A stretch of 64,000 bases of DNA from NCBI RefSeq assembly GCF_013128195.2, contig NZ_CP053452.2, positions 7,750,001 through 7,814,000 on the forward strand. Direction: 5' to 3'. The translations under genes were made by a program, and so were the position numbers. A model generated the notes under the pieces. The model made no database searches, was not told the origin of the DNA, and saw only the letters and a program-made list of their open reading frames with translations. This document shows, in pieces, positions 35,365 through 49,495 of the stretch. Position 1 is the stretch's first letter. Each line of letters opens with the position of its first letter. The DNA is from Frigoriglobus tundricola (GTDB taxonomy: Bacteria > Planctomycetota > Planctomycetia > Gemmatales > Gemmataceae).

Positions 35365-36447
35365 CTACTCGAACGTCACCAGAGCCAGCTTCTCTTTGAT
35401 CTTGGCGCGGAGTTCGTCCGGCAGCGGAGCGTAACTGAGTTCGGTGGTGAACGACTGGCCCTCGGTGGTGGCCCACTTCAGGAACTCGACCAGCGCCGGC
35501 CCCTTGTCCTTCGGCTGCTTCGCGAACAGAACGGCGTAGGTGAGGCCGCTGATCGGGTACGACTTGGCCCCGTCCGCGTCCGTGAGCGAGTACGTGAGGT
35601 CGTGGAGCGAGTACGGTTCTTTGTCCTGCTTGGTTTTCAGCGCCTCCTCGGCCGCGGCGGTCACCGCGGCGGCCTCCGGTCCGACCCACGCGCCCTTCTT
35701 GTTCTTCAGCAGGGCCGTCGCCAGGCCGTTCTTCTTGGCGAACTCCACTTCCACGTAGCAGATCGCGTACGAGTTGCCTTTGACGAAGCCGGAGACGCCG
35801 TCGCTACCCTGCTGCCCGGTGACGCCCTGCACCCAGTCCGGTTTCGTGCTGGCCTTAAACTTCCCCTTGCTCGCCTTCGAGAGGTACTCGGAGAAGATGT
35901 TGGACGTGCCGCTCTTCTCGGCGCGAGCGACGACCACGATGTCCTTGTCCGGCAGCGCGAGGCCCGGGTTCAGATCCGCGATCCGCTTGGCGTTCCACTT
36001 CTTCACGCTCTCGTCGCGGAGGTAAATGTCAGTGAGGACTTCGCCGGTCAGCTTCAGCTCCTTGCCCGCGATCTCGGGCACGTTGTACGCCACCGCGACG
36101 GCGCCCATCGTCAGTGGGATGTGGTACACGTCGCCGCCCGCCTCTTTCGCCTTGGCGAGCTGGTCCTTGTTCATCGGGGCGTCGGTGCAGCCGAAGTCGA
36201 TCGTCTTCTTCGTGGTCTGCTCGATGCCGTAGCCGGAGCCCTGCGAGACGTAGTCGATTTCGGCGTTCTTATTTTGCTTGTACTCGCTCGACCACTTCTG
36301 CATGAGCGGGTTGATGAACGTCGAGCCGCCGGCGCTGATCCGCGCGGGGGGGCCGGAGGTCGTGCCATCGGGGTTCTTTTTGTCGCCACACCCCCCGACG
36401 ATCGGCAGTGCGGATACGAAGAAAACGAATGTGAGGAATCGCGTCAC
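35365..36447 (-). CDS. pstS: Phosphate-binding lipoprotein PstS
   Basis: I prefer the GTG at 36447, with GGAGGGGG just upstream (about 36450-36457), over a longer frame; it gives 360 residues starting with a lipoprotein signal ('[17 protein letters not shown]'). Phosphate-ligand motifs are visible: '[13 protein letters not shown]', 'QGSGYGIEQ', 'FGCTDAPM' and '[15 protein letters not shown]'. It captures phosphate in the periplasm. It is transcribed ahead of the PstC-PstA fusion and divergently from pstB. The 206-bp divergent gap should hold the phosphate-responsive promoters, but I could not identify a clear Pho box. Confidence 0.95.
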
Positions 36448-36653
36448 GGGACCCCCTCCGAGGGAAAGTAAATACAAGAACGGACAACTTATCGGTCCCG
36501 GTAAGCCCGAACAGTCCACGGATCGTGAAGCTTTGGTGTGGTGTCACCGCCGCGAGGCCACTCATTTCCTTCATTTCCTCTTCTTCTAGGCTTCACAATA
36601 TTTGGATACAACATCGGGGCCGGATTTCGTTCGTACCCGAAGCGAGAACGCGC

Positions 36654-37484
<831 letters not shown>

Positions 37485-37504
37485 GCGTCGAGAAGCGGAC
37501 CCAC

Positions 37505-37527
37505 GCAAGGACAATGACTGTCCTTGC
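37505..37527. terminator. Hairpin after pstB
   Basis: GCAAGGACA (37505-37513) pairs with 37519-37527 around ATGAC, 20 nt after the stop. The remaining sequence to 37745 shows no gene. Confidence 0.55.
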
Positions 37528-37745
37528 TGGGTGTGTGAAACCGGAACGGCTTGTCGCCGCGTTTGCGTGAGTCGGAACGGCACGGCCGCTCGTTCCTGCG
37601 GCGTGCCCTTGCACGCGATTGTGGGAGCGGTACCGACGCTTTCAGGCGCGCCCCGGCATCGGTCGAGTTGTCTTGACAGTCAGCGAGACCCGCAAGGAGC
37701 GGCTGTTCTTTTCGTTGGGTGGTTCGCGGTGTGTAGAGGAAGGGC

Positions 37746-39575
37746 TCATTTCTTACGGATCTCGATCGATCCGTTACTGGTGTGCAGTTTCACATCCGCC
37801 GCGGGCTTCGCACCGATGGTGGCGTCCAGACTGCCCCGCTCGGCCGATTCCTTCGAGCCTCCAGAGAAATCGCTGACAACGCGGCCGTGACTTGTTCGGG
37901 CCTCGAGTCGGAATTGGGCACTCGCCGGCAAGGTGAGGACAATATTGCCGTTGCTGGTTTCCAGCGCGTGTTTGCCGTCGATCAGGCTGCCAGTGAACCG
38001 GATCGAGCCGTTGGACGTCTGGGCCTTAACGAGCGCCTTCTCGGCTTGCACGTCGATGGGGCCGTTGGTCGCTTTCAGTTCGACCCCCCCGCTCGCTCCG
38101 GTGACGAAGATGCCACCGTTGGTGGTGACCAGGTTCAAAGAGCCCTTGCTGTCCTTGACGTGGACCGTGCCGTTGGACGTGTGAACGGTGACCCGGCCCG
38201 ACCCACCGGCCAGCTTGACAACGCCGTTGCTCGTTCGCAGGTTCAGAGCGGCCCCCGGCGGTACACGGATCTCGGCCGAGGCCCCTTCCGAACGGTGCCA
38301 ACTTTTCTGCTCCAGGCGGCGGGCGGTGATGCTGACGGTGTCCTTCTCCTGGATCATCGCGACCTCGATGTTCTTCATCGCTTCCTCGGCTTCGGCCCGA
38401 GTGTCGGCCTGACTCTCTTTGGTCACACGGGCGTTCACGGAGCCGTCCGCGTCGGCAACAACGTCGATGCTGCCGTTGAACAGTTCGAGGACGAGGGTCG
38501 GCGCCTTGCCCGTTTTGAACGACTTCGTGACCACTTCCTCCAACTTCGGACGCGTCTCCTTCTTGTCCTTCTTGTCGTCCTTGTTTTTCTTGTCCTCCTC
38601 GGGCATTGCGGCCACCCGACCGACCGTCGGGTCGTCACCGGCCCGCGCCGGGCGGGCCGCCGCGGGTTCCGATTTCGGAGGCGCGGCGTCCGCCGCCAGT
38701 GTTTGGTAGACGAACAGCGCCGACCCGGCGCCAACCAGGCACAGGGCCAACACCACCGCGCCGACCGATTTCAAATGATTCAGCATCATGGTGCGCAACG
38801 CTCCTTTGGTGAGTAGGGCGACTCGTGCCGGGACCGCGGCCGCCGCGGTCTGTCCGCCGGCGTAGAACCGGGCGGCCCGGACAGTGGATTGCACGAAGGT
38901 GAAAGTGGCCGAGGTGGCACCCGGCAAGGAGAGCGCGGCGGCCAGGGCTGCGGGCGCGACCCCCGCGCCGCGCCGTGCGAGCCGCGCCCGCAGCCGTTTC
39001 CGGGCGCGGGCCAGTCGCGTGACCACGGTTCCGGTCGGACAGCCGACCAGCCGGGCCGCTTCCTCGTTGCTTTTGCCTTCCATGTAGCACAGAACCACCA
39101 GCGCTCGATATTTTTCGGGCAACCGGCTGACCTCTTCGTCGACGATGGACCGGAGGTCCTCGCGAACCGCTCGGAGCGCGGGATCGGGCGAGTGGTGGAC
39201 GCACTGTTCCCCGGCTTGTTTTTCCTGGCTCCCGCGCCGGACGGCATCGACCTGGACGCGGAGCGCGATCCGGTACGCCACCTTGTACAGCCAGCCACTC
39301 AGGGCCTGGCGCCGGCCGATGGCGCCGGCCTTACAAGCCAGGGTCAGGAAGGTCGCCTGGCAGGCGTCCTCGACGTCCTGCTCCGCGCGCAGCAAGCGGC
39401 GGCAGACGCCGCGCACGAGCCGCTCGTGCCGCCACAACAGCAGCTCGAACGCCGACTCGTCGCGCCGGGTGAGGAAGCGCTCCAGCAGGTCGGCGTCGGA
39501 TTCAGTTGGGGCGGTTTGTCGATCTTCGCCCGCGCGCACGCGACCGGCCAGTTGAGCCAGAGGACTCCGTGCCAT
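37746..39575 (-). CDS. ECF sigma factor fused through a membrane helix to a DUF4097-like domain
   Basis: 609 residues in one frame. Sigma region 2 (about 40-105, 'DVEDACQATFLTLA', 'LSGWLYKVAYRIAL') and region 4 (about 150-200, 'LPEKYRALVVLCYMEGKSNEEAARLVGCPTG'-like). One membrane helix follows (about 270-290, 'VGAVVLALCLVGAGSALFVY'), then a Lys/Asp-rich linker and about 260 residues of DUF4097-type beta-helix rungs with recurring 'TSNG' turns. The topology puts sigma in the cytoplasm and DUF4097 outside the inner membrane. Release by proteolysis on envelope stress is an attractive inference. An IS1595-type element sits 97 bp upstream and may have displaced its promoter. Confidence 0.9.
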   Translation of the reverse strand: MARSPLAQLAGRVRAGEDRQTAPTESDADLLERFLTRRDESAFELLLWRHERLVRGVCRRLLRAEQDVEDACQATFLTLACKAGAIGRRQALSGWLYKVAYRIALRVQVDAVRRGSQEKQAGEQCVHHSPDPALRAVREDLRSIVDEEVSRLPEKYRALVVLCYMEGKSNEEAARLVGCPTGTVVTRLARARKRLRARLARRGAGVAPAALAAALSLPGATSATFTFVQSTVRAARFYAGGQTAAAAVPARVALLTKGALRTMMLNHLKSVGAVVLALCLVGAGSALFVYQTLAADAAPPKSEPAAARPARAGDDPTVGRVAAMPEEDKKNKDDKKDKKETRPKLEEVVTKSFKTGKAPTLVLELFNGSIDVVADADGSVNARVTKESQADTRAEAEEAMKNIEVAMIQEKDTVSITARRLEQKSWHRSEGASAEIRVPPGAALNLRTSNGVVKLAGGSGRVTVHTSNGTVHVKDSKGSLNLVTTNGGIFVTGASGGVELKATNGPIDVQAEKALVKAQTSNGSIRFTGSLIDGKHALETSNGNIVLTLPASAQFRLEARTSHGRVVSDFSGGSKESAERGSLDATIGAKPAADVKLHTSNGSIEIRKK

Positions 39576-39671
39576 AATTCTGCCTTTCCCCGACGATCAG
39601 CCGTCTCTCCTCCTGTAAGAGGCACAAGACAGCGGAACCCTGTCACTTTTTTCGTGAGAACAAAACAAAGA

Positions 39672-40725
39672 GGCTCATGAGGCCGTCGGGGTGGAACTGG
39701 TCTTTTCCCATTCCCCGGTCGAGCGTTAGAGTACGCCGGTGTTGGGTAGCCGTGGTTTTGGAGGCCGGGAGATGGACTTCCCGATCGTGGACCTGATGGA
39801 CCCAGGCGCGTGCTACCGGTATCTGGTCGATTTGCTGCACCCCGACGGTCTGTCGTGCCCGCGGTGCCACCGGTCCGATGGGATGGGGGTTCAGGCCCGG
39901 CATCGGGCACCGGTCCTGGACTACCGATGCACCCATTGCGGTCGGGTGTTCAATGCGTACACCGGAACCCCGCTCCACGGCACCCGTCGGCCCCCGGCCC
40001 AGTGGGTTCTGATCTTCCGCGGGTTCGCGCAAGGAACCCCGACCGCTCAACTGGCGCGAGAACTGGGGTGCGATCGGATGCACCTGCTGGATCTGCGGCA
40101 CCGGTTCCAGGAACGCGCCGCGGGAGCCGCCACGCAGGTCGGCGCGATCCCCGGCTCGGAGACCGAAGCGGACGAGATGTTCCAGAATGCGGGGGAAAAA
40201 AGGGGTCCGGCACCCGAACCCGGACGACCCGCCCCGACGCCGGGCCAACAAGCGGCGCGGGCACGGGAACTTCGCCAACGACCGCCCGCCGGTGGTCGGG
40301 GTGGTGAGCCGGGACACCGGGGCCATCGTCCTGGAGGTCGTCGAACGAACGGACCAGGAGACCCTGATCGCGTTCGTGACCGAACATACCGATGATGGCG
40401 CGACCGTATACACGGATGAGTGGTCGGGGTACGCGCGGCTGTCCGCGGAGGGCCGCGGGCATGCCACGGTGAACCACACCCCGGGCCAACGGGAGTGGGC
40501 TCGGGATGACGACGGGGACGGGATCCGCGAGGTCCACGATAACACGCTCGAGGGCCTGTGGGCGGCCCTCCGCACGTTCCTGCGACCGTTCCGCGGGATC
40601 AGCAAGCACTACCTCCACCAGTACGTTGCCGTCTTCCAATGGGCATACAACAAGGTCGGCGTTGCGGGCATGGTCCGCACACTACTGGGCCTGCCCCTGT
40701 CCACCCCGACGGCCTCATGAGCCAA
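39672..40725 (+). mobile_element. IS1595-family insertion sequence, complete
   Basis: 24-bp perfect terminal inverted repeats (39672-39695 and 40702-40725, beginning GGCTCATGAGGCC) flank one transposase gene. The 8-bp target AACAAAGA is duplicated exactly on both sides (39664-39671 and 40726-40733), the duplication length expected for IS1595. Perfect ends and target copies mean recent insertion. Total 1054 bp. Confidence 0.93.
39772..40720 (+). CDS. IS1595-family transposase, two frames joined at an A6 run
   Basis: ATG 39772 follows GGAGG. The N terminus carries a zinc ribbon ('CPRCH', 'YRCTHCGRVF') and 'WVLIFRGFAQG'. The catalytic core starts at 'EADEMFQNAGEK', where the frame must shift +1 in GGGGGAAAAAAGGGG (about 40192-40206) to continue 'GVRHPNPDDPPRRRANKRRG', 'YTDEWSGYARL' and 'HDNTLEGLWAALR'. 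Without the shift the first frame degenerates. Slippage on A6 could be functional, or the extra A may be an error or inactivating mutation. The stop lies inside the right terminal repeat. Confidence 0.88.
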
Positions 40726-40936
40726 CAAAGATTGGGGCGCGACTCGCGGGCGTGAGAACCAATACGATCAGATCGCAGTAATGCGTTATCAAGTCTTGGC
40801 TTAGGCGCTGCAAGCCTGCGGTCTTTGTTAAGAAGAAGTGGAGGCCGTCCGAGCTTCAAGAGCGGGCACGCTCGTTCTCGCTCGCCTCCCTGGAGCTGAT
40901 TCGTTGGTCGGCGCTTGGCAAATCGCGCCGCTCCAC

Positions 40937-42945: not shown

Positions 42946-45249
42946 TCACGGAATATCCCAGAGCCGTGCGGTCCGGTCGTCGCTACCGGTCAAGAACTGT
43001 TTGCCGTTGGGGGAAACGGCGAGCGTACGGACGCCGCGCCGGTGACCCGTCCACTGGGCGAGCGGGTGGCCCGTCTCAATGTCCCACATCCGGACCGCTA
43101 CGTCAGACGTAATCAGTTGTTGGCCATCCTGTTGCAACTGACCGCCCCCGACGGACAGGGCGCGCCGGCCGTCCGGTAGAACGGCGACCCGTTCCACAAA
43201 AGCCGTGTGAGCGAGAATCGTGCGGCGTTCTTTCCCGGCTACCACGTCCCACATGCGCACGGCGCCGTCGAACCCGCCGGAAACGACCGTGCGGCTGTCG
43301 GGGGTGAACGCGAGTTGCCGCACATCGCCCGTGTGGCCCGTCAGTTCGTGAACCTGCCGGCCCGTCGCCAGATCCCAGATGCGCACGGCGTAGTCCCACG
43401 ACTGCGCGCGCAACGCGCCGCCGCCGCCCGTCGCCACCCACCGCCCGTCGGGCGAAACCGCCGCCGTCCAGACCGCCTGCTTCCCGCAGGAAAATGTTCG
43501 CACGACCGCACCCGAGGCCAGATCCCAGAGCCGCGCCGTTCCGTCCAGGGAGGCGAGCAGAGCGGTCGTCCCGCCGGGCACATACGACACCTGCCAGACT
43601 TCGTCCGTGCTGGGGAGCGCGAGCTGGGCCGTTACGGTTTCGGCCTTCAGATCGTAGACGAGCGCCCGTTTCGAGCCACCAATGAGTGCCTGTGAACCGT
43701 CCCGAGCGATGGCCACCGAGAGCAACCGCGCGTTCGGCGTCACGAGGTGCTTGGCAACCGGCCGCCCGGTCGTGGTGTCCCAAATAGACAGCGTGCCGAC
43801 CGTGTCCACGGTCACCGCCCGATCGTCCGACAGGTACACGATGTCGTTGACGGGGTTCTGAATGCCCTCGAGTTGCAGCACCTCCTGGGTCATCGTCGGC
43901 ACGTCGCCCGGCGTGCTTCCCGGCCCGTTCGGTGTGCGACGACCGAAGGCACCAAGAACCCAGGCCGCACCCCCAAGAGTGACCGTCGCTGCCACCGCCG
44001 TGCCGATGACGATCGACCGCCGGTGCCAGCGCCGGGGACGCGACCGGCCCGGCGTCGCGCGCGGCCTCTCCGACGGTTCGATCCGGGCCAGTTCTTGTTC
44101 CACCTGCCGGGCCGATGCGGGACGGGCCACCGGTGATTCCGCGAGCATCCGCTCGATGAGCGCGGCCATTTCGGGCGGCACGTCCGGCGCGTGTGAGCGG
44201 ACCGGGCACAGCGGGGGCCGGTCCGCGGCGCGGGCGTGCTTCAGGTACGGCAGGTGTCCGGTGCAGAGTTCGTAAAGAACGCAACCCAAGCCGAAGAGAT
44301 CGGACCGGGCATCGGCAGGGGCGCCGGCCAGTTGCTCCGGGGCCATGTAAGCGAGTGTGCCGATGATCTCGCCGGCGCCTTCCGCCCGCGGGACCGCCAG
44401 CCCGAAGTCCAGCACCTTGACGCGGGCGACGGCCGGCAGCAGTTGGCGCGTTTCGGTCGGGTCGTGTGACCACCCCGGCGGCGCTTCGAGCCACAGGTTC
44501 GCGGGCTTCACGTCGCGGTGAACGAGCCCGGCGGCGTGGGCCGCCGCGAGCCCCGCGGCGGCCTGGCGCCCGATCCGGGCGACCCACTCCGGCGGGGTCC
44601 GCGCGACCCGGTGCAACCAGCCGTCGAGCCCTTCGCCGGTCAGCAGTTCCATCGCCAGAAACGGGACCGGTCGGCCGTCCTGGCCGGCCTCTTCACCGAC
44701 CTGGTGGACGACGACGATGTGGTCGTGCCGTACCCCGGCCATCGCCCGCGCTTCGCGCAGGAACCACGCCCGGCCGGCCGCGTCCCGACCGGGCCGGGGG
44801 CGCATCACCTTCAGCGCCACGTCCCGGCGAAGTGTCGTGTCTTCGGCCCGGAAGACGACGCCCATCCCGCCGACCCCGATCACCTCGAGGACGCGGTAGT
44901 GAGCCAGCCGCCCGAGTTCTCCGGCCCCGCGGGCGGGGGCCAGGTTCCGCACGACATCGTCCACTCCGCCGGGTGGGGTGGCACCCAACCGCCCCGATGT
45001 GAGCGTCGGATACAGGCTGCTGAGGCGTGCGATAAGTGGGGCGAGTTCGTTCGGGACCGGAGCAGCCCGGGGCAACCCGCACCGGATCTCCCGCACGAGC
45101 GGGTTCTCGACCGGGAGGCCGGCCGCCCGCGCCAGACACACCGGGCACCCCTCGACGTGTGCCTCCACCGCATCGGCCCGGTCTGGGGGCAAATGGCCGG
45201 AGAGCAGGGCGAGGAGGTCAACGGTTTGCGGACAGGTGGGATCGGTCAT
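42946..45249 (-). CDS. Ser/Thr protein kinase with anti-sigma-like zinc motif and WD40 repeats
   Basis: 767 residues. The N terminus (1-45) carries H-x3-C-x2-C in 'AHVEGCPVC', the signature of zinc-binding anti-sigma domains. A Hanks-type kinase domain follows (about 115-390): 'GVGGMGVVFRAED', 'VALKVM', 'HRDVKPANLW', 'DFGLAV' and 'GTLAYMAPEQL'. One membrane helix (about 412-435) leads to at least seven WD40 repeats (about 455-767) ending 'DDRTARLWDIP'. The start overlaps the stop of an ECF sigma gene by 4 bp. The kinase likely holds and releases that sigma factor; this is inference from gene order and the zinc motif. Confidence 0.93.
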   Translation of the reverse strand: MTDPTCPQTVDLLALLSGHLPPDRADAVEAHVEGCPVCLARAAGLPVENPLVREIRCGLPRAAPVPNELAPLIARLSSLYPTLTSGRLGATPPGGVDDVVRNLAPARGAGELGRLAHYRVLEVIGVGGMGVVFRAEDTTLRRDVALKVMRPRPGRDAAGRAWFLREARAMAGVRHDHIVVVHQVGEEAGQDGRPVPFLAMELLTGEGLDGWLHRVARTPPEWVARIGRQAAAGLAAAHAAGLVHRDVKPANLWLEAPPGWSHDPTETRQLLPAVARVKVLDFGLAVPRAEGAGEIIGTLAYMAPEQLAGAPADARSDLFGLGCVLYELCTGHLPYLKHARAADRPPLCPVRSHAPDVPPEMAALIERMLAESPVARPASARQVEQELARIEPSERPRATPGRSRPRRWHRRSIVIGTAVAATVTLGGAAWVLGAFGRRTPNGPGSTPGDVPTMTQEVLQLEGIQNPVNDIVYLSDDRAVTVDTVGTLSIWDTTTGRPVAKHLVTPNARLLSVAIARDGSQALIGGSKRALVYDLKAETVTAQLALPSTDEVWQVSYVPGGTTALLASLDGTARLWDLASGAVVRTFSCGKQAVWTAAVSPDGRWVATGGGGALRAQSWDYAVRIWDLATGRQVHELTGHTGDVRQLAFTPDSRTVVSGGFDGAVRMWDVVAGKERRTILAHTAFVERVAVLPDGRRALSVGGGQLQQDGQQLITSDVAVRMWDIETGHPLAQWTGHRRGVRTLAVSPNGKQFLTGSDDRTARLWDIP

Positions 45250-45830
45250 GGGGCATCGGCCCGGGGGTGATCGTCGCTAACGAGGTCACCCAGTTCCTTA
45301 TGGAGTCGGGCCAGCACTCGAATTTTGGATTTGTACACCGCCGTCTCGGACACGCCGAGTTCGGCCGCGACATCGGGGGCGGTCCGACCGGCCACGACGT
45401 GTTCCCAGAACGCTCGCCAGGTGGACGGCTGGAACTGTCCCTCGATGGCCGGCAGCACCTGGGCCATCAGGTGCCGGCCCAGGTCGATCTCCTCGAGTGA
45501 GGTCGGAACGGGATCGGCCACGTCGTCCGGCTCGCGCGCGCCGTCCACCGGGAGGCGCTTGCGGCGGGTCCGCTCGCGCCACTTGTTGCGCGCGATCGTC
45601 CACAGCCACCCGCGGAACCGCAAGGTCCGGTCGTAGCGAAATTCGGGCAGCTTCTGGACCAAGACGGTGAACACGTCCTGAACGAGATCGATGGCGTCCG
45701 CGTCCTGGAGCCCCAGGCGGCGGGCCCAGGCGTAAAGGGCCGGGGTGTACAAGCGGACGAATTCCGGCCACGCGTCCGGTCGGGCTTCTCCTTGGAGGCT
45801 CCGAATCAGGTCCGTGGACGTGGTGAGCAT
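45246..45830 (-). CDS. ECF sigma factor, coupled to the kinase gene
   Basis: I chose ATG 45830 (194 residues); an in-frame start 10 codons upstream is possible. Region 2 is clear ('DAIDLVQDVFTVLVQKLPEFRYDRTLRFRGWLWTIARN'-like segment), and region 4 has 'TAPDVAAELGVSETAVYKSKIRVLARL'. It belongs with planctomycete ECF groups genetically linked to Ser/Thr kinases. The 4-bp overlap with the kinase indicates translational coupling. Confidence 0.93.
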   Translation of the reverse strand: MLTTSTDLIRSLQGEARPDAWPEFVRLYTPALYAWARRLGLQDADAIDLVQDVFTVLVQKLPEFRYDRTLRFRGWLWTIARNKWRERTRRKRLPVDGAREPDDVADPVPTSLEEIDLGRHLMAQVLPAIEGQFQPSTWRAFWEHVVAGRTAPDVAAELGVSETAVYKSKIRVLARLHKELGDLVSDDHPRADAP

Positions 45831-46264
45831 TCCGATCAACTCCGTACCCTCGGTCCGCACCCGCTTCCGTTCCGTGCAGATTCCGAGGACGTTACCTCAT
45901 CTCAGAATAAGGGGTTTCACGCCCGCGGTCCCCTCGGCTCTATGATTTCTCGCCTCAGAATTTTGACACAAGTGCAATGGTTGTTGGTTATTGCTTCGCT
46001 CCCAGACGTAAATCGAAACTCGATACCAGTTGCGTGAAAATTCGGCGCACGGCGATTGATAGTCGCGCTCGGCGTTTTCGTGATGAGGGATCGGTGTTCT
46101 TTGCGCGATTTCTCTGGGAGACGAACAGTTTGCGCGCTGATGGCGCCGCAGAAGTGTGGGAGCAACGTTCGCGAACCGTTCCGCGGAACACCCCCGTGGG
46201 AATGGCCGGCTCACGCCGGCCGTTCGCCTCATCGACTCGGGCCGAGGTTACGGGTTCCGAGCGC
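45831..46264. other. Intergenic region, upstream of the ECF sigma gene
   Basis: 434 bp, lower in GC than the genes. It separates two same-strand regulatory genes and presumably contains the sigma/kinase promoter, but I see no confident promoter motif, RNA or hairpin. Confidence 0.4.
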
Positions 46265-49200
46265 TCATCGATTTGCGGGGCGCTTCAGTCGCGCGGTCGC
46301 GGCTGTGGCTTCGCGGGTTACGTAAGCGTCTGGCGCTCCGGCCGCCCACTCCTCCAGCAACTTGCGCGCTTCGGCGGTCCCGATATGCTCCAGGATCGCG
46401 ACGGCCCGCACTTCCCGGAGGGGGTCACCGGCCGGGACGATCGGAGCGTTCGTCGCTGCCAAAAGTCGCCTGAGCCGATCATCTTGCTCCGCCGAGAGGT
46501 CTCCCCTGAGAGCGGCGCGCAGCGCCGGCGCGGCAGCGGACCCGAGTAATTGAAGTGCCTTCGTGGCCGCTTCCCGGTCGGCAAACTCCGGGGCGTCCAG
46601 TTTCGCGATGAGTGCTTTCACGGCCGTCTCGTCCGCCGTCCGCGCCGGTTTTAGTTTTTCACGGAGCAGCGCAACGGTTTCCGCGGGTCTGTCTACCAGT
46701 TCCCAGGCGGCCTTGTGCGCTGCGGCGGCGTTCGCACCGGCGAGCGCGTCCCACAACCGGGTCGGTGCCTCAGTACCCGGCTTCGGCAGGCCCGCCGACG
46801 CGGTCAGATCCCACACCAACCCGGTGCCGTCCGCGAGTGACGTGAGCGCGCGGGTTTCGCCGGGCAGAAGCAGTTCGGTCGCCGGTGCCGGTAACGACCG
46901 TTGCAGGCGCTGGGCTCCGGTCGCCGTGTCGAACACCTCGACGGAACTGCTGCCGGCCGTAACCAGTGTCCGGCCGTTCGCCGCCAGGGCGAGGTGATCG
47001 AGTGGACCGGTCTTCACCACCGCTGCAACCGCACCGGTTGCGGTTTCAACGACGATCACCACACTCTCTTTCAGCTCCTTGTCCTGTGTCTTCTGAGCTG
47101 CCAACAACCGACCGTCCGCGGAAAAGGCGAGCCGAGCATTGGCGCCCACTCCGGGAACAGTGAACCGGGTTCGGGACGGATCATTCCCGTCAGCGACTAT
47201 CAGCCCATCCGAGGTAGAAAACGCGACGGCCGATCCGTCTCCCGTCCACGCCCAGTGGCGGTGAGCCGGCGGGAGTGATCGTCGGCCTTTCACTGCGCCC
47301 GAAGCAACGTCCCACACCACCAGGTTGGTCGATTCCGGGGTCGTCCACACCCGATCGAGTGCGGCCGCGGTCTTCCCGTTTGACGAAACGCGTATCCGGT
47401 ACAGGTAGTCGGGTCTCGGCACGTTATGGCTCGGGACATCCAGTTTGACCGCCCGTGTCTCCTTGCCGGTCGGCCAGTCCCACCACTGGACGAAGCCTTG
47501 ATAACTCCCGGCCCAGAGGGTACGACCGTCGGGGGAGAAACTCAGATCGCGCACGTAGCGCCCCTCCTCTCCACGGAAGGGCAGCGTCCGCAGCAGTCGG
47601 CCGTCGGTCAGATCCCATATTGAAACGCCTCGGTCCACCCAATCGGCTGAGGCGAGCCACCGGCCGTCCGGGGAGGCGGCTAACACCGGTAGTTGTCCCA
47701 AGTTCCCCGGCCGGTCGAACACTTCTTTCCCGTCAGCGACGGTCCAAACCCGCAACTTCTGTCCGGTCGTCGCCACCACATGCTTACCGTCGCGTGTGAA
47801 AACAGCTCCGAGCGGCCGGCCGAGTAACTCGTGAAGGACGCGGCCGGTCCGTAAGTCGATCGAGCAGCTCTCGTTCGAAAAGCTGCACGCGAGGGTTTTG
47901 CTGTCCGGTGAGACGTCGAGCGAATGGTAGGAATATCTCGCCTTCAGGTCGAACCGAGCTGTCTCTTTGCCTGTGGTGAGGTCGAACGTCGCGAGTTCAG
48001 ACCCCTTTTGGCCGTTCGGCTTCCAGAGCGAGGCAACCAGTGTCTTACCATCCGGGGCCACGGTGGAATGACTCGGATCACACTCCAGGTGATACTTTTC
48101 GGTGCCTGTTGCCACGTCGAACACGCAGAGTGCTTTCCACTGCCCGCAACCGGCCACCAGCCACTTCCCGTCTGGCGAGAAATAACCATGAAAAGAGCTG
48201 TCCACCATGAGCGCACCTGCCGGGAGCGAAAGCTCGCGCGTCACATTGGTCTGCCATTGGACGAGTGTGAGCCGCGGCTCGCTGGTGAGCACCGCGAGTG
48301 TATTGCCATCGGGTGAGAAGAATGTCGAATGGAAGTTTGTGCCGGGCGCCGGGAATGAGGTCTTCTCTTTCCCGGTTTCGGTGTCAAAAACAGTCAGGTT
48401 CATTCCGGCGAATCCGGTGCCGTACCGGCCGTCGGGCGATAGTGCGCCTCGCCACTGGACGTTTGCGGCCTCCGGAATTTTTCGAGTCTCGCGGCCCGTG
48501 GTCAGATCCCAGGTGCGAAGTTGGTGATCCGAGCCGGACGTGAGGACCGACTTGCCATCGGGTAGGAGGACAAAGTCGCGCACCCCGTCGTGCCGGAACA
48601 GTACGCTGCCCAGCCGCATAACCGCGCCCTCCGGCAACGGATCACCGAACGCGTCGGATCTCGCCTTCGTGTCGGCGGTCTCTTCTTTCGGCGGGGTGGA
48701 CTTCGTCGGGCCGTCTGACATGACCAGCCCCGCCCCGGCAGCGAGCCCGCCCGCCAGGAGGACAACCGACATGGCCGCTTTCCAGCCCGTGAGCAGCGAC
48801 GAACTCAGGCCCGGCGTCATCGCCCGCGTGCCGGATGCGGCGACCACACGCGCGGTGAGTGGCGCGGACACCTGCGCGGCTAACCTCCGCCCGTCGAGTG
48901 CGGCCAGGGCCAGCCCGCCACCGACGACACCGCGGCGGCGGAGCCGCCGGTTGAGCCGCTCCAGGCCGTCCGCGATTCGCCGTTTGAGGGTGCTGAGCGA
49001 CACGCCGATCGCTCGCGCCGCGTCGTCTCGGGTTCTGCCGTCCAGGAAGCACAGGACCAGCGGCGCGCGGAGCCGTTCGGGGAGCGCGTTCAGCTCCTCG
49101 TCGAGCATCGCCCGCACTTCCTTCCACGAGAGATCGGCGAGCGGGTCCGGTTCGATTGTCGGGTCGGGGGCGTGAGTGAGGGCGGGCTTTCGCGCCCGGA

Positions 49201-49495
49201 TCTTCACCGCCGCGCGACACGCGGTTTGGTGCAACCACGCGGGCAGGGCGGTCGGGGTGCGAACGCTTTGGGCGTGTTGGAGTAACGAGAGGAAAGTGGT
49301 TTGGAACGCGTCGTCGGCATCGGCACTCGGGCCGAGCACCCGCCGGCACACGCCCAGTACCATCGGCCCGTGTCGGCGGACCAGCTCCGCGAACGCGGTT
49401 TCATCGCCGCCCGCGGCCGTGGTCAGCAGGACGGTGTCGTCGAGGTCCGGACGGCCCGTGCGGCTCAGCGATCGGATCACAACGGTCGCGGACAT
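46265..49495 (-). CDS. ECF sigma factor fused to WD40 repeats and a HEAT-like C terminus
   Basis: 1076 residues. Sigma region 2 (about 35-105, 'DADDAFQTTFLSLLQHA', 'ALPAWLHQTACRAAV') and region 4 (about 135-185, 'LPERLRAPLVLCFLDGRTRDDAARAIG'-like). A membrane helix (about 232-258, 'AAMSVVLLAGGLAAGAGLVM') leads to a WD40-type propeller (about 295-885, many 'SPDGRW' turns). The C terminus (about 900-1060) has alpha-solenoid signatures ('ALIAKLDAPEFADREAATKALQ', 'AVAILEHIGTAEARKLLEEWA') common in planctomycete ECF-WD40 proteins. The sensor portion is predicted outside the membrane. Signal unknown. Confidence 0.93.
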   Translation of the reverse strand: MSATVVIRSLSRTGRPDLDDTVLLTTAAGGDETAFAELVRRHGPMVLGVCRRVLGPSADADDAFQTTFLSLLQHAQSVRTPTALPAWLHQTACRAAVKIRARKPALTHAPDPTIEPDPLADLSWKEVRAMLDEELNALPERLRAPLVLCFLDGRTRDDAARAIGVSLSTLKRRIADGLERLNRRLRRRGVVGGGLALAALDGRRLAAQVSAPLTARVVAASGTRAMTPGLSSSLLTGWKAAMSVVLLAGGLAAGAGLVMSDGPTKSTPPKEETADTKARSDAFGDPLPEGAVMRLGSVLFRHDGVRDFVLLPDGKSVLTSGSDHQLRTWDLTTGRETRKIPEAANVQWRGALSPDGRYGTGFAGMNLTVFDTETGKEKTSFPAPGTNFHSTFFSPDGNTLAVLTSEPRLTLVQWQTNVTRELSLPAGALMVDSSFHGYFSPDGKWLVAGCGQWKALCVFDVATGTEKYHLECDPSHSTVAPDGKTLVASLWKPNGQKGSELATFDLTTGKETARFDLKARYSYHSLDVSPDSKTLACSFSNESCSIDLRTGRVLHELLGRPLGAVFTRDGKHVVATTGQKLRVWTVADGKEVFDRPGNLGQLPVLAASPDGRWLASADWVDRGVSIWDLTDGRLLRTLPFRGEEGRYVRDLSFSPDGRTLWAGSYQGFVQWWDWPTGKETRAVKLDVPSHNVPRPDYLYRIRVSSNGKTAAALDRVWTTPESTNLVVWDVASGAVKGRRSLPPAHRHWAWTGDGSAVAFSTSDGLIVADGNDPSRTRFTVPGVGANARLAFSADGRLLAAQKTQDKELKESVVIVVETATGAVAAVVKTGPLDHLALAANGRTLVTAGSSSVEVFDTATGAQRLQRSLPAPATELLLPGETRALTSLADGTGLVWDLTASAGLPKPGTEAPTRLWDALAGANAAAAHKAAWELVDRPAETVALLREKLKPARTADETAVKALIAKLDAPEFADREAATKALQLLGSAAAPALRAALRGDLSAEQDDRLRRLLAATNAPIVPAGDPLREVRAVAILEHIGTAEARKLLEEWAAGAPDAYVTREATAATARLKRPANR

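Follow-up and report, generated by a model that had tools for sequence, protein, structure and literature searches.

ECF57 sigma factors have WD40-like extensions and two conserved cysteines, which link sigma-2 and sigma-4. The model protein of this group is WP_015250107.1 from Singulisphaera acidiphila, a member of the Planctomycetes, and the passages that deal with ECF57 file it under activation by protein interaction, not under proteolysis (PMC8999054). For fused membrane ECFs, the relevant passages of the same paper give proteolytic activation as shown for IutY and as proposed for ECF48, ECF52 and ECF53 (PMC8999054). ECF52 has been described as confined to Actinobacteria. In Tuwongella immobilis, a species of the Gemmataceae, five ECF sigma factors were recovered in Triton- or SDS-soluble membrane-type fractions, for three of the five in just one experiment, and the passages concerned propose no membrane helix for these proteins (PMC8567305).

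The DUF4097 or toastrack domain is tied to envelope-stress systems, and published accounts differ on the side of the membrane where it lies. The DUF4097 domain of Bacillus subtilis LiaG is called extracellular (PMC9239133), whereas one survey, in the part that treats the question, makes the case for an intracellular location of toastrack domains (PMC11237479). No description of a fusion between a sigma factor and DUF4097 was found in the literature searched.

Here we describe such a fusion from Frigoriglobus tundricola. Positions refer to the window, which is the whole stretch of 64,000 nucleotides that was analysed. The gene occupies 37746-39575 on the minus strand and is a single open frame of 609 codons from ATG to stop, with a Shine-Dalgarno-like GGAAAGG directly 5' of the ATG. 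Sigma region 2 (residues 49-106, 39258-39431) includes a conserved Cys58 and matches PF04542 (Sigma70_r2) with an E-value of 1.3e-7. Sigma region 4 (residues 145-195, 38991-39143) includes a conserved Cys163 and matches PF08281 (Sigma70_r4_2, E 1.4e-14). Regions 2 and 4 are matched and no other sigma-70 region, such as 1.1 or 3, is (Pfam, NCBIfam), as defines an ECF sigma factor, and the NCBIfam sigma70-ECF superfamily model is exceeded with an E-value of 1.3e-19. The linker that follows (residues 201-270, 38766-38975) is weakly conserved in the alignment of paralogues, and in residues 200-270 no zf-HC2 domain, other Pfam match or conserved anti-sigma-like domain was found. It leads to a single predicted membrane helix (residues 271-289, 38709-38765), beyond which lies a Lys/Asp-rich stretch read from the sequence as EEDKKNKDDKKDKKETRPK (residues 326-344, 38544-38600). 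The C-terminus is a DUF4097 toastrack beta-helix domain (residues 379-607, 37755-38441), which matches PF13349 over nearly the whole profile (10-247 of 247, E 9.7e-13, 48.5 bits against a gathering score of 22.9) and was also matched in the genome search. All three Pfam domains score above their curated cut-offs. The LiaG-family model of NCBIfam is matched with an E-value of 2.6e-11 but far under its own cut-off.

The three homologies are independent of one another and lie within one frame, which rules out a chance open frame. The original prediction of sigma regions 2 and 4, one membrane helix, a charged linker and a DUF4097-type beta-helix in one open frame is borne out in every part, the helix as a predicted one. 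PADLOC gave no matches for an anti-phage element, and Rfam gave none for an RNA element in the window. Sequence relatives in the Protein Data Bank cover the sigma part only (25 distinct sequences at E <= 0.01). An AlphaFold2 model built from a three-row alignment was poor (mean pLDDT 49.5) and carries no weight as evidence.

The predicted helix is a 19-mer with a mean Kyte-Doolittle (KD) value of 2.46, which was attained by 12 of 10,000 shuffles of the same 150-residue region. It is the sole strong hydrophobic 19-mer of the protein; the best KD is 0.89 in the sigma part and 1.01 in the remaining tail. With only one hydrophobic segment, an inserted helix would set sigma and toastrack on opposite sides of the membrane. 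There are three Lys and Arg residues before the helix and one after it. Membrane tethering is supported by these features, and single-pass anchoring with the toastrack outside is highly probable. That DUF4097 acts as a sensor on the extracytoplasmic side is plausible.

The sigma part and helix belong to a large family in the same genome. With residues 1-300 as query there were at least 139 match rows among the best 150 of 236 candidates, some of them two pieces of one gene, and the best other relatives are 45-49% identical. From the 30 best rows and 51 further rows we extracted 81 frames, including the sigma-toastrack gene; rows with internal stops, split rows and weak rows were excluded. At least 150 amino acids follow sigma-4 in 76 of the 81. 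A hydrophobic 19-mer with KD of at least 1.6 occurs within 150 amino acids after sigma-4 in 75 of these 76 long-tailed relatives, a threshold at which the control is weak, as the regions are Ala/Val-rich and 43% of shuffles also reach it. At KD of at least 2.0, 59 of the 76 qualify, compared with 837 of 7,600 shuffles, and at 2.2 it is 35 of 76, against 305 of 7,600. The best helix window begins 46-72 amino acids past sigma-4 in 74 of the 76. Lys plus Arg is higher before the helix than after it in 51 of 75 relatives, lower in 8 and equal in 16, and a further hydrophobic segment occurs in the sigma part of none of the 81 frames and in the rest of the tail of two. From these counts, the fixed place of the helix, the charge bias and the lack of a second segment, the family is predicted to be single-pass with sigma inside.

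Cys58 is kept in 90% and Cys163 in 98% of the 81 frames. Among 73 tails with at least 100 amino acids after the helix (Pfam, E <= 1e-4), the matches listed include a beta-propeller (PF25174) in at least 23, WD40 in at least 20 and PD40 in at least 21. Since the architecture is common to about 75 other proteins of the genome, the membrane-anchored, ECF57-like sigma scaffold is family-wide and the novelty is confined to the outer domain. The genome has at least 150 region-4 matches (best 150 of 374 candidates). A second member of the scaffold family is present in the window at 46265-49495 on the minus strand, a protein of 1076 amino acids with a sigma part and a beta-propeller tail. Some words are enriched upstream of the 81 genes, among them GAAGTGAA (6 against 0.2 in shuffles) and CGCGCCGG (14 against 2.5). 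We claim no common promoter motif upstream of them, the looser A[AG]GTGA[AC] being found in 13 of the 81 at scattered places.

A tree built on 105 sigma parts and 262 columns places the sigma-toastrack protein with proteins from six congeners (L072-L077), with a support of 0.85; deeper nodes have 0.74 and the branches are long, at least 1.18. By plain identity another relative, L079, is slightly closer (0.489 against at most 0.483 for the six). These six proteins bear a different, unrelated tail, in which no Pfam domain scored above its cut-off for the three proteins L072, L073 and L076. As the nearest sigma relatives carry this unrelated tail, the outer domain was likely exchanged in this lineage, in either direction. 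No orthologue of the sigma part was found at E <= 1e-75 in 94 other genomes of the family (at most the best 24 candidates per genome), and the one relative that a contig scan with the full-length protein yielded is 41% identical over residues 6-308 and has another tail.

The toastrack domain is rare among close relatives of this bacterium. A profile search of its own genome found one DUF4097 match, the sigma-toastrack gene. Of 95 genomes of the same family, two match the Pfam model at E <= 0.001 and this one alone passes the cut-off; the other match (G010, 21.1 bits) is a 251-residue protein without sigma. A search with the tail found matches in 9 of 119 relatives' genomes, its own included, and none of the others comes from a congener or family member. 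The tail has no match at E <= 10 in the other own-genome frames of the 81 or in 28 congener frames. In a phylum sample of 392 genomes DUF4097 is present in 60, in 55 of them above the cut-off. Sigma was found within the DUF4097 frame at none of 39 loci from other genomes, although a fusion may be missed where a frame is truncated by the edge of a locus; the 39 comprise nine loci from the tail query, one from the family and 29 from the phylum sample (about 90 match rows).

A separate sigma-like frame lies near the DUF4097 gene at two loci, L128 and L107. In L128 a toastrack gene that is PspC-like by eye (about 616-2203) is followed by a separate ECF-like frame of 170 residues from 2266; sigma and toastrack are neighbours here, not one chain. 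Three relatives of the same order (L033, L034 and L035) have DUF4097 frames of 307 amino acids without sigma. L034 conforms to a strict lipoprotein rule, and L033 and L035 are lipoprotein-like by eye only. Under the strict rule 14 of 35 phylum frames have a lipoprotein signal, against 0.24 in shuffles, which is a lower bound because the 35 include at least five frames other than the DUF4097 one. Toastrack fusions were seen by eye in phylum genomes, with Ser/Thr kinases in L101 and L117 and with a BlaR1/M56-like sensor in L109. As far as motifs can be judged by eye, fusions of this domain with signalling proteins recur in Planctomycetota.

On the 3' side of the sigma-toastrack gene are two genes which, from their sequence, we take to be pstB (36525-37484, plus strand, convergent) and pstS (35365-36519, minus strand). 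On the 5' side are an IS1595-type element and an SMI1/KNR4 gene. No separate anti-sigma gene adjoins, in agreement with the original prediction. At least six zf-HC2 matches were found in the genome (best 150 of 217 candidates), the nearest of those listed falling within a kinase gene at a distance of about 5.5 kb. This gene (42946-45249, minus strand) encodes a Ser/Thr kinase that has a zf-HC2-like motif at its N-terminus and also a WD40 propeller. It overlaps an ECF-type gene at 45246-45860 on the minus strand, in which Pfam matches sigma region 2 alone, and the two are likely a kinase/anti-sigma-sigma pair.

The IS1595-type element (39672-40723) has perfect 24-bp inverted ends, an 8-bp target duplication AACAAAGA at 39664-39671 and 40724-40731, and a transposase in two overlapping frames. 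It lies 88 bp upstream of the sigma-toastrack ATG and may have changed the promoter of this gene. No sigma-70-type promoter was found in 37450-39800, where terminator-like sites number two, against 2.7 expected. A relative of the sigma-toastrack gene beside pstB was found at none of 14 congener loci, with flanks that reach no more than 1.5 kb to either side and in some cases end with the contig.

We propose, with roughly even confidence, that the protein is a one-piece ECF57-like membrane sigma factor that has its toastrack outside, is inhibited while tethered and is freed by proteolysis. Support comes from the domain order, the family-wide place of the helix, the lipoprotein signals of phylum relatives, the extracellular domain described for LiaG, the Tuwongella immobilis fractions and the proteolysis of other fused membrane ECFs. 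Against it stand the intracellular placement in PMC11237479, the arrangement in L117, the weak helix control at KD 1.6, the absence of an anti-sigma-like match in the linker and the filing of ECF57 under protein interaction. In the mechanism that we infer, sigma domains 2 and 4 would be cytoplasmic and joined by a short linker to the one membrane helix, and a charged stalk would carry the toastrack beta-helix on the outer side. The tethered sigma part would be withheld from RNA polymerase. The signal might be an envelope change sensed by the toastrack, or a protein bound to it. Cleavage in or near the helix, by a site-1 protease and then a site-2 protease of M50/RseP type, would free the sigma part, and transcription would start. 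Given single-pass anchoring with the toastrack outside, proteolytic release is somewhat probable. M50 proteases are encoded by five frames in the genome, but all 14 control genomes also match them, which makes their presence a poor indicator of release.

The main rival to proteolytic release is a conformational switch that involves the cysteine pair. The same anchored protein would not be cleaved; the toastrack signal would cross the helix and open a clamp between sigma-2 and sigma-4, held by Cys58 and Cys163 as a pair or by a metal, and sigma would work at the membrane. The retention of both cysteines among the 81 relatives argues for this, as does the strong conformational change via cysteines that is proposed for ECF57 in the passages on that group (PMC8999054). 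If it stayed in the membrane, however, the sigma factor would have to capture RNA polymerase and promoter there, and the one characterised fused membrane ECF, IutY, is described as acting through cleavage. We regard the switch as possible but rather doubtful.

It is unlikely that the toastrack is cytoplasmic, with the helix either uninserted or passing in and out, and helps to build a signalling complex beneath the membrane, the role proposed for toastracks linked to PSP. The intracellular placement argued in the relevant part of PMC11237479 would agree with this, as would the L117 protein, where by eye the toastrack sits between the kinase and the membrane helices. Against it, the single hydrophobic segment puts the two parts on opposite sides if the helix is inserted, many DUF4097 relatives in the phylum are lipoprotein-like, and the LiaG domain is called extracellular where PMC9239133 deals with it. 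The least probable reading is that the domains were fused recently and the product has evolved no function, the promoter perhaps broken after the IS insertion, as the element just upstream with its duplication, the 14 congener loci and the lack of a relative of the same architecture among 95 family genomes might suggest, but the 609 codons are intact, the domains complete and the sigma motifs conserved.

Beyond the single gene, we consider it an evenly balanced proposition that about 75 proteins of this genome are one-piece membrane sigma receptors with one scaffold and swappable outer domains, that the WD40 propellers of ECF57 are located beyond the cytoplasmic membrane, and that this gene arose by a recent exchange of the sensor in which a toastrack lipoprotein domain was captured. 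If so, dozens of planctomycete sigma factors would be membrane receptors in which a single chain serves as sensor, tether and transcription switch, and the outer domain would be the exchangeable part of the scaffold. The propeller domains of ECF57 would be placed outside the cytoplasmic membrane, and the control of many ECFs without anti-sigma genes, a long-open question, would become testable. The toastrack member connects the sigma scaffold to the PSP/Lia envelope-stress systems.

Among known systems, ECF57 resembles the sigma-toastrack protein in its C-terminal extension and in one cysteine in each of sigma-2 and sigma-4, and many relatives in the same genome have WD40-like tails. The conservation of Cys58 and Cys163 fits ECF57, and the protein is called ECF57-like from such described features. 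The extension is WD40 in ECF57 and toastrack here, and a helix is predicted in nearly all long-tailed relatives here, whereas the passages of PMC8999054 on ECF57 mention none. What that paper says of the reducing cytoplasm applies to the sigma domains and still holds; the helix would put the propellers outside.

ECF52 (SCO4117, Streptomyces) and ECF48/ECF53 are described as single chains that join sigma to a membrane helix and an extracytoplasmic domain, like the arrangement predicted here, and their truncated form retains activity. They differ in a zinc-finger anti-sigma-like domain that is described between sigma and helix, where none was found in the sigma-toastrack protein. The IutY group is fused to a FecR-like anti-sigma and siderophore receptor system. 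IutY (ECF243, Pseudomonas putida) likewise combines an ECF and a membrane regulator in one chain and is described as cleaved by Prc/RseP, but it is without a toastrack. LiaG and the PSP-linked proteins share a toastrack beyond a membrane anchor and, as described, belong to envelope-stress modules. In those systems the toastrack is apart from the transcription regulator, whereas in the sigma-toastrack protein it is in one chain with sigma.
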